From NCBI GenBank assembly GCA_001315925.1, contig BBBF01000003.1, positions 1 to 64,000 on the forward strand: 64,000 nt of DNA, written 5' to 3'. Shown piece after piece: positions 11,363 to 27,182 of the stretch (position 1 is the stretch's first letter; each line of letters begins with the position of its first letter). Under the pieces are notes generated by a model. That model was given only the letters and a program-made list of their open reading frames with translations, had not been told where the DNA came from and did not search any database. Both the position numbers and the translations under genes were made by a program. Origin of the DNA: Thermocladium modestius JCM 10088 (lineage in GTDB: Archaea > Thermoproteota > Thermoprotei > Thermoproteales > Thermocladiaceae).

Positions 11363-11573
11363 CTATTTGCCTCGGAAAAAAAGGAGGAGTTTTTCCCAAG
11401 CCTTGTCATTTCTATACCTAATCATGGCTATTAATGCGTAGAAAGAAAAACAAGACTAAGGGTAAAACCTCCATCCATTAAGAATCCACGCGGTGGCCCT
11501 CGTTTCAGCGACCATGGAGTGATGAAGCGTAGTTGTTGGGGGAAGGTTTTAAATATGGAACGGTTTTCCTCCC

Positions 11574-12708
11574 GTGCTGAAGTGTCCGAAGTGCGGGTTC
11601 TCCGTTGATGACTACGGTATACTTAAGTGTCCGAAGTGCGGGTTGCCCTTGTTGGTTTCCAAGGGCTCTATCAACTATAGGATCAGCGGCAATAAGAGTG
11701 GAATATGGAGGTATAGCTCCATGCTTCCCAAGGCACGGGAGGAGGTATCGTTGGGCGAGGGCTACACGCCGGTCAGGCACATGGGTAAGTTCCTGCTTAA
11801 ATTGGAGGGAAGAAACCCCCCCAGCGGATCCTACATGGATAGGGGGGGTACAGCCGTCTGGATAAGCCACCGCATGCCTAGGGAGATATCGCTGAGGATG
11901 GATGGGGACTTCTCTAAGTCAGTTTCACTATACGTTTCCAGGATAGGCGGAAGGGTCTTGGTCTCCATAGGAAAGACCGATGATGCGCGTGATGTGGAGT
12001 TTTATGCGAAGTTGGGGGGGTGCAACCTATGCATAGATTGCGTGATGGAGCCGTCGGTTAAGTATGGGGATCCCTTGATGATAGAGGGTTATAAGACGAT
12101 TTCCATCGAGTTATATGAGCAGCTGCGCAGCATTAATGGCATAGTGGTTCCCGTGGAGAGCGGCATTTTGGTCTATTCCATTTGGCATGGGATAAACGAA
12201 TTACTTGAGGCAGGGGTCCTGAGTTCTCCTCCCCCCCACATAATAGGCGCGCGGCTGTTGGGCAGTTCCAGCGATGGTTTGGGCAATCCCATAATAGACT
12301 TCTTGAAGACCAGGGGAGTGGAGTTCATGGACGTGGATCCGCAAGACTCTTTGGATGCGGTGATCAGGCTGACCAGGATAAACGTGTATGCTAGGCCAAT
12401 ATCGGCCGCCGCCTACGTAGTGGCGGAACAAATGGGGAATGATTACGTGGCCATAATAAGCGGCTCCTCCGGCTTCAAGCATTACTCCAGGAAGGGGGGA
12501 CACGACCAGCTTACAGCGGGAGCTGTTGCAAGTGGTTAAGTCTATGGGAAAGGCCACTGCCTATCAAGTGTGGCAGAGGGTTACTGGCGAGGTAACGCTT
12601 CAAGGAGTCTATAAGGCATTGAATAGCTTGGTCAGTAAGGGACTTCTTCGCTCGGAGATGGATGTGAGGGGGAAAAAGACGGATAGTGTATTTCATGGCC
12701 GGCGATGA
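11574..12708 (+). CDS. threonine-synthase-like pseudoenzyme fused to a winged helix
   Basis: Domains in order: a zinc ribbon (LKCPKCG and LKCPKCG, residues 2-24), a type II PLP fold resembling threonine synthase (EGYTPV, then NPSGSYMDRG near residue 90), and a C-terminal winged helix (about residues 320-378, with TAYQVWQRV, TLQGVYKALNSLVSKGLL). In true threonine synthase the motif is SFKDRG and the Lys carries PLP; here it is Met (codon ATG). The SSGN and GNGGN cofactor loops are also not recognisable. Shortening the G6 run at 12494 by one joins fold and winged helix in one frame. I infer a ligand-binding regulator, not an enzyme. Translation probably begins at the GTG soon after TTTTAAATAT (11546). 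The MFS gene 92 nt downstream is a possible target. Confidence 0.75.
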
Positions 12709-12799: not shown

Positions 12800-13975
12800 A
12801 TGGATTATGTAGATAAGGTGATGCTGCTGAGCGGGATCAGGTCCCTCGGCTTCTCCATAATATGGCCATACATAGGCCTGATACTTTACCGCTTCAATAC
12901 GCCACTATGGATGATAGGCATTTATTATGCTGCCCAGGCTATAACAGGCGCCGCGGCCCAGATGGTGGGAGGAGTATTGACGGATTACTTGGGCCGCGTG
13001 AGGACCATGAGCATAGGAATTATTGGAGGAGTGGTTACTTTGGCGGGGGGGGCCTACTTGGCAAGGGATCCCATACTATTGATGTCGCTATTATTGGCTC
13101 AATCTATTTTCAGTTCCATGTACGCCGTGGCCAGCTCCACCTTGGTGGGGGGGGATGTCAGGAAGGGTATGGAGAACTTAGTTAATGCCTATAGCAAAGT
13201 TAGGGTGGGGGGGGCGAACGCTGGATGGGCCTTGGGCCCATTCATAGGAGGGGGGTGGCGATCCAGTACATAGGTTATAGATCGCTTTTCCTATTAACCG
13301 CCACCATCTCTTTCGCCGCCCTCCCTTTGGTATCCACGATCAAGGATTTGAAGGTGAGGAGCAGGATAAAGTTGACAAATATAAGTAGAGACTTCTCCAA
13401 ATTCTTGGTTCCATCTTTGTTTCTATTTATGGTGATGGGCATGATGGGATTCGCCTTGGCAATGTATTACAACGAGGTCAGGGGGGATTCCCACCTCGGA
13501 GGTGGGGGGGATGGTGTTTGGCTTGAATGGTTTACTGGTGGTCCTGTTGCAGGAGAGGGTGGGGAGGTTTATATCCAAGAGAAACGCCATTAAGTGGCTC
13601 ACCTATGGATCCATAATATACTATGCATCGTACAGCTTGGTTGCATTTATCGGTAACTTCTATCTAGCCATGGCTGATGTAGTGGCGATAACCATGGGAG
13701 AGATGATAGTCTCCCCCCCATTGGCTCAAGCGCTTGCCATGAACATGGCGGAGGCCGATAGGAGGGGCCAGTACATGGGTCTCTTTAACTTGGCGACCAG
13801 CATAGGCAGGAGCGCGGGCTCCGTGTTGGCCAGCGAGACGATGCAGATATATCTATACAACCCAGTAATTTTGTGGCAAATACTTTCGATTCCTGCGTTG
13901 CTGGCGGCAGCTCTGTACTGGGCCGTTCTCGGCAGCAAGAGCGTGGAATTGGCCTCCCCCCCCACTGCTAGATAA
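12800..13975 (+). CDS. MFS transporter
   Basis: Major facilitator with about 12 hydrophobic segments over 390 residues. The MFS motif between TM2 and TM3 is seen as GGVLTDYLGRVRTMS, and a weaker counterpart (ERVGRFISKRNAIKW) opens the second half. Substrate unknown. ATG at 12800 lies about 27 nt after the TATA-like TTTTTAAACC (12769-12778), so the transcript is probably leaderless. G tracts near 13143, 13207, 13250, 13484 and 13505 change the frame. It follows the pseudo-threonine-synthase regulator. Confidence 0.85.
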
Positions 13976-27006: not shown

Positions 27007-27182
27007 ATTTCGCTCCATACAATTAAGGAAATCACGCTACTGAGAATATTTCTCAAGCGACAAATTCATCCTCCTCCCCCCCTCAAAAAACGCGTAATTA
27101 GGAAGAATGGAATAGTAATTAACAAACTAATTTCCTTATTGAGTGAAGAAAAATATTAAACCTTTAATGTTTGTAATCGATA

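Follow-up and report, generated by a model that had tools for sequence, protein, structure and literature searches.

A gene at 11574-12708 of the window, the 64,000-nucleotide stretch of the Thermocladium modestius JCM 10088 genome analysed here, encodes a member of a clade of proteins from many thermophilic archaea which are probably transcription factors that arose from threonine synthase by loss of the catalytic lysine and gain of a C-terminal winged helix, and which control the supply of vitamin B6. With the same good confidence, the clade can be described as a lysine-less, fold-type-II sensor and regulator of vitamin B6, an archaeal counterpart of the bacterial PdxR. The fusion of the two domains, the loss of the lysine, the gene context, the shared operator, the promoter geometry and the match between a protein residue and the operator are all supported by the sequence comparisons presented below.

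The ORF at 11574-12539 of the window begins with a GTG codon and encodes a threonine-synthase-like protein with a PF00291 (PALP) match of 5.6e-17 and a CxxC...CxxC zinc ribbon, and thus bears out the zinc ribbon and threonine-synthase layout that had been proposed in the initial annotation from the DNA letters alone. SYMDRG is found in place of SFKDRG, such that the pyridoxal phosphate (PLP) lysine is replaced by methionine, and the cofactor loops are likewise gone, with 'DGDFS' where SSGN and 'PVESGI' where PVGNAGN would be expected. The winged-helix frame that follows (12523-12705) shows weak matches to helix-turn-helix families (BlaI/TrmB/PadR, best 0.0057). With the start codon at 11574 so close to the TATA-like box (Table 1), the transcript should be leaderless or almost so. 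The PALP fold of the clade is called from sequence (PF00291 at 70 bits against a cut-off of 35 in the protein of the closest relative, locus L034), and a structure model of one complete relative had a mean pLDDT of 34.

Table 1. Features of the regulator gene and its downstream neighbour in the window.
Feature	Coordinates	Strand	Remarks
TATA-like box of the regulator gene	11547..11555	+	Sequence read directly
PALP domain resembling threonine synthase, with a zinc ribbon at its N terminus and Met for the PLP lysine	11574..12499	+	
Former catalytic motif NPTGSFKDRG, now NPPSGSYMDRGG	11816..11848	+	Between inflated C7 (11816) and G7 (11842) runs
G6 run splitting the frames of the two domains	12494..12499	+	Most likely an artefact; relative L034 reads through
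C-terminal winged helix-turn-helix, one protein with 11574-12499	12526..12708	+	
Recognition helix TLQGVYKALNSLV	12595..12633	+	Gln codon 12601-12603 covaries with the operator variant
MFS transporter gene adjoining the regulator, broken by G runs	12800..13975	+	No operator

Relatives were sought in 61 genomes, then in 81 genomes of the class and then in 398 genomes of the phylum, where the clade was found to be spread across the Thermoproteota. Among the 81 class genomes, complete clade members scored at least 409 bits, while the true threonine synthases reached 166 bits at most. The 38 full-length clade members were aligned with 24 proteins of a second clade and with 12 true synthases, and the fragmentary regulators of G020-G023 and G342 and the window copy were set aside. 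The 38 proteins form a single clade in the tree (support 100/100), and the PLP lysine is present in none of them (A14 M13 S6 Y4 T1), as opposed to all 12 of the true synthases. Its absence from every full-length orthologue indicates that the missing lysine in the window protein is no artefact. The asparagine of the SGN loop is replaced by Asp in 35 of the 38, the GN of the second loop (GNxGN) is swapped, mostly for [EKS][RTS], and the phosphate loop has become [RTSK]G. A winged helix follows within the same ORF in all 38, whereas the true threonine synthases of the same archaea carry the N-terminal zinc ribbon and lack the winged helix. The search for homologues combining both domains with a non-lysine residue, suggested in the initial annotation, was thus matched by every full-length member, and the lysine-bearing homologues that might have marked this copy as an error proved to be separate, true synthases. 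The proposed origin of a regulator from an enzyme is supported by these data.

The gene context links the clade to PLP synthesis. A total of 44 neighbourhoods were fetched, 40 of them from the main clade, and PdxS (identified by PF01680) is encoded in 13 of the 20 main-clade genomes outside the window's class. The regulator gene lies at most five genes from pdxS in all 13, and in 11 of these, from families f16, f18, f25, f35 and f51, it directly abuts pdxS/pdxT on the same strand (PdxT identified by TIGR03800, 181 bits against a cut-off of 105.6, and PF01174). The same immediate neighbourhood occurs inside the class in G057, while the remaining class genomes that have both pdxS and the regulator gene show them apart from each other, and the g5 genomes, of the same order, contain pdxS and no regulator. 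The neighbours in the other lineages differ between genera and no common function emerges from them: a CBS-HTH regulator and HerA/Mre11/Rad50 in g4, CoA transferases, cytochrome-bd-like genes and thermopsin in g7, and a HAD phosphatase and DUF981 in g2.

A shared DNA element accompanies these genes. The perfect palindrome TTGAACGTTCAA lies upstream of pdxS in regulator-bearing genomes, and it still precedes pdxS in the g7 genomes of the same order, where the regulator is distant from this gene, while the pdxS promoters of the window's own family (f1) carry the symmetrical variant TTAAACGTTTAA. The location of both the gene and this DNA signal beside genes for B6 synthesis and import suggests that the protein is probably the vitamin B6 gene regulator of these archaea. 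A set of 47 promoters was picked by the 12-mer, so that only its surroundings carry information. When aligned, they show the palindrome lengthened to TATTRAACGTTYAAYA, with a purine-rich, BRE-like stretch and then a TATA-like stretch at +7 to +12 after the 12-mer. A dimer of the regulator would be expected to bind TATTRAACGTTYAAYA directly upstream of the BRE and TATA elements. We infer the dimer, the ligand, the direction of regulation and the substrates of the transporters discussed below from these sequence features and from analogy.

Archaeal activators generally have their sites upstream of the TATA box. The fixed position of the palindrome upstream of the TATA-like box across the 47 promoters and the analogy with the bacterial PdxR, which activates pdxST as an apo protein with PLP acting as anti-activator (PMC5320631), suggest that the ligand-free form is probably the activating one and PLP the off-switch. 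When PLP is low, the regulator would be active and both synthesis and import would be switched on, and binding of PLP would switch them off. The opposite arrangement, a repressor that is released by B6 starvation, is somewhat less probable and yet a serious contender, as the palindrome abuts the BRE/TATA region and a bound dimer could block TFB; both the upstream site at its fixed distance and the PdxR precedent count against it.

The dead active site of the regulator most likely holds PLP or another B6 vitamer, bound without a Schiff base. The PLP contacts are largely remodelled and a different ligand is therefore possible, so that the protein might regulate the B6 genes in response to threonine, O-phosphohomoserine or an amino acid with a PLP-dependent supply. 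The descent of the fold from threonine synthase and the loss of the PLP lysine and of the SSGN and GNxGN loops are in keeping with such a ligand, as is the arrangement in eight f24 genomes, where members of the second clade, in which the lysine is replaced by arginine, are divergent to a threonine synthase of true length as judged by coordinates (the lysine of this neighbour was seen in two). However, the operator sits at genes for B6 synthesis, transport and interconversion, and searches for exact or near-exact sites found none at threonine or methionine biosynthesis genes. In the protein itself, the Thr/Ser that contacts the pyridine nitrogen N1 in threonine synthases is retained in 38 of the 38 clade members, and none of the 38 still has the Arg of the substrate-phosphate region (NPWRLEGQKT). 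Sensing of another ligand is thus considered unlikely. The amino-acid sensing envisaged in the initial annotation has given way to vitamin B6 sensing, since PLP synthesis and uptake are what both the DNA site and the gene context indicate.

Within the class, exact TTRAACGTTYAA occurs at the pdxS promoter in all nine readable regulator-bearing genomes, as opposed to one of 20 genomes in which no regulator was detected (Fisher 1e-6); the promoter of G043 is masked and was excluded from the nine, and that of G057 was read separately. In the genome-wide search among the 398 genomes, exact TTGAACGTTCAA is found in 17 of the 28 regulator-bearing genomes outside f1 versus 46 of the 351 without the regulator (p 4e-8), in none of the 15 f1 genomes and in none of the four with divergent members. 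The 20 exact TTGAACGTTCAA sites in these 17 genomes are located at pdxS (13), an APC permease (three), an ECF S component (two), an ABC solute-binding gene (one) and between a methyltransferase-like and a CoA-transferase-like gene (one). Likewise, 31 of the 35 exact TTAAACGTTTAA sites in f1 are found at pdxS (13, of which two were assigned from their coordinates and three because their upstream sequences are similar), an orthologous APC permease (10) and a class-V aminotransferase (eight), with four elsewhere. The counts of 31/35, 17/28 and 46/351 and the 20 sites by target were tallied by hand. The exact site is absent from 11 of the 28 regulator-bearing genomes outside f1. Degenerate forms were observed at pdxS in G168, G173 and G262, and no target site was found in G033, G043 (promoter masked), G126, G310, G314, G318, G342 and G345, nor in G011. 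A common site upstream of the regulator genes, as would indicate autoregulation, was not seen, and the 150 bp upstream of the window regulator contain no operator (best match with four mismatches).

The residue that precedes GVYKA in the recognition helix follows the operator variant, being Arg in 17 of the 17 genomes with TTGAAC and Gln or Leu in eight of the eight with TTAAAC. On the tree the match comes down to just two independent changes, each of them as expected (sign test p 0.5), and it is thus suggestive rather than statistically proven. If the palindrome belonged to another regulator, its co-location with a dead synthase would be coincidental. The 46 regulator-less genomes that contain TTGAACGTTCAA somewhere could be explained in this way, as could the f1 variant at pdxS of G018, the sole such case in a genome with no detected regulator and an 84%-complete metagenome-assembled genome. 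The immediate pdxS-pdxT-regulator neighbourhoods, the nine of nine against one of 20 pdxS promoters and the covarying residue make such a coincidence highly improbable, and assignment of the regulon and the DNA site to the lysine-less regulator is well supported by the sequence comparisons.

The regulator would thus govern B6 supply through pdxS or pdxST, encoding the PLP synthase, where these are present, with an APC permease, an ECF S component, possibly an ABC importer and a pyridoxamine-pyruvate-aminotransferase-like enzyme as further predicted targets. Genes for B6 uptake and interconversion would be the only targets in genomes without pdxS, such as those of Thermocladium. Sites at the APC permease (G034, G006) and at the S component (G055, G082; both PF07155) also occur in PdxS-less genomes, which is consistent with a role in B6 import. 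The operator-bearing aminotransferase has pyridoxamine--pyruvate transaminase as its best NCBIfam match, at 262 bits and so below the curated cut-off of 600; this score was obtained with the G008 copy, and class-V aminotransferases with the operator at their promoter were observed at loci L181, L186, L169 and L191 (g1, g2 and g4). In the PdxS-less G302 (locus L237), the operator is flanked on one side by a divergent ABC permease-like gene and on the other by a gene for a solute-binding protein (PF01547), and the products of these genes are candidates for a B6 ABC importer.

PdxS (PF01680) was not found in the window's own genome (G000) or in G001 and G002, and the exact operator was not found in G000. 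The latter does, however, contain the near-perfect operator TGTTAAACGTTTAGTAA on contig C28, 42 bp ahead of the start of the APC permease gene, with a spacing close to that in its relatives. The target in this genome is likely to be this permease on another contig and not the adjacent MFS gene that had been put forward as a candidate in the initial annotation. The MFS gene adjoins the regulator in all three genomes of the genus Thermocladium and is separated from it by about 5 kb in G005, G008 and G011. In the window copy, its upstream 100 bp contain no match to the operator with fewer than four mismatches. A weaker, imperfect operator-like palindrome, TATTAAACCTTTAATG, is present at 27154-27169 of the window and occurs also in G002; it precedes by 21 bp an ORF that was identified by eye as methylmalonyl-CoA-mutase-like. 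In this looser operator search, the reversed-pattern control returned no matches in G000 and eight over seven genomes, where the operator pattern itself returned 22.

The two domains of the window protein are in different frames on either side of the G6 run. The closest relative, Thermocladium sp. UBA166 (92% identical; L034, with L005 representing the same contig), was the only one found in a scan of named genomes, and it has five G at the fusion point and a single, unbroken ORF of 378 amino acids. Runs of G in the 64-kb window number 21 of length five, 109 of length seven and 29 of length eight, those of C 11, 117 and 33, respectively, while A and T runs show a normal decay with length. Where the UBA166 contig has a pure run, window runs of seven correspond to four (15 cases) and runs of six to four or five (six cases). 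Given this inflation throughout the window and the uninterrupted relative, a sequence artefact most likely underlies the frame break at 12494, as the initial annotation had supposed in reading the two domains as one fused protein. The notion that a decayed threonine synthase and a small HTH protein are encoded by two genes and merely seem fused finds its support in the frames set by the G6 run, and with a single ORF for both domains in 38 relatives and a window rich in inflated runs it is scarcely credible and is refuted for the family. Run inflation also accounts for the NPPSG and DRGG oddities in the motif and for the additional residues that flank the former active site. Across the window, G and C runs of four to five have swollen to six to eight, mostly by three bases (e.g. 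at 11816, 11842, 12494, 13250 and 13481), and many genes are broken or lengthened as a result. The inflated runs may explain the completeness estimate of 47.6% for G000 (1.92 Mb in 118 contigs, the window being on contig C3).

Neither such a regulator nor any archaeal B6 regulator was found in the literature searched, as judged from titles and the openings of abstracts. The clade provides a concrete candidate for an archaeal B6 regulator, with a DNA site, a list of targets and a testable contact between residue and base. It also nominates an archaeal pyridoxamine-pyruvate aminotransferase, as well as B6 transporters, namely the APC permease, the ECF S components and the ABC importer, for a vitamin whose transporters are stated to be still unidentified in many organisms (PMC9997740). 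More broadly, it appears somewhat probable that the Archaea evolved their own B6 regulator independently of PdxR, from a killed threonine synthase and a winged helix and with lysine-free PLP sensing, that a larger, Lys-to-Arg sister group controls threonine synthase or B6 import, and that pseudo-threonine-synthases constitute a broad class of archaeal transcription factors that sense metabolites. The present case suggests that many archaeal proteins annotated as 'threonine synthase' are actually regulators.

The best matches among solved-structure profiles are threonine synthases (PDB 6cgq, 1uim, 2zsj and 2d1f; 6.3e-17 to 1.1e-15), from which the window clade differs in the absence of the PLP lysine, the remodelled cofactor loops and the added DNA-binding domain. 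A sister architecture, also combining the threonine-synthase fold with a C-terminal winged helix, is represented by the 'threonine synthase' family NF004170/PRK05638. Against its cut-off of 421 bits, the window-clade protein of L034 scores 133.6 bits and the Lys-to-Arg protein of L105 scores 699 bits, and 12 of the 398 genomes have members above the cut-off, with many slightly below. The SxGN and phosphate loops are largely kept in this family, unlike in the window clade. Thirty second-clade loci were fetched (L255-L284), six of which had no match to the motif pattern and were excluded; all 24 members read have Arg for Lys and a C-terminal winged helix, and these proteins are probably regulators too. 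At L105:7557-11788 of G213, the gene for a Lys-to-Arg member precedes genes for an ABC ATPase and for an ECF S component that belongs to PF07155, as do the operator-bearing S components of G055 and G082; the two likely form a vitamin importer. The CysH-ThrC fusion described in PMC11237513 differs from the fusion in the window. The closest functional parallel is PdxR, a member of the MocR subfamily of GntR regulators, whose MocR relatives are stated to be absent from the Archaea (PMC5320631). As described there, PdxR also joins a PLP-enzyme fold to a winged helix and controls pdxST together with genes for B6 salvage and transport; the corresponding regulon here is predicted from operators and gene order. 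It differs in having a fold-type-I aminotransferase domain and an N-terminal, GntR-type winged helix, as opposed to the fold-type-II threonine-synthase domain (PALP only) and the C-terminal, weakly BlaI/TrmB/PadR-like helix of the window clade, and it binds PLP (PMC5320631), whereas PLP binding by the lysine-less clade is predicted. The archaeal protein would represent a PLP enzyme turned regulator of PLP supply, convergent with PdxR from an unrelated fold.
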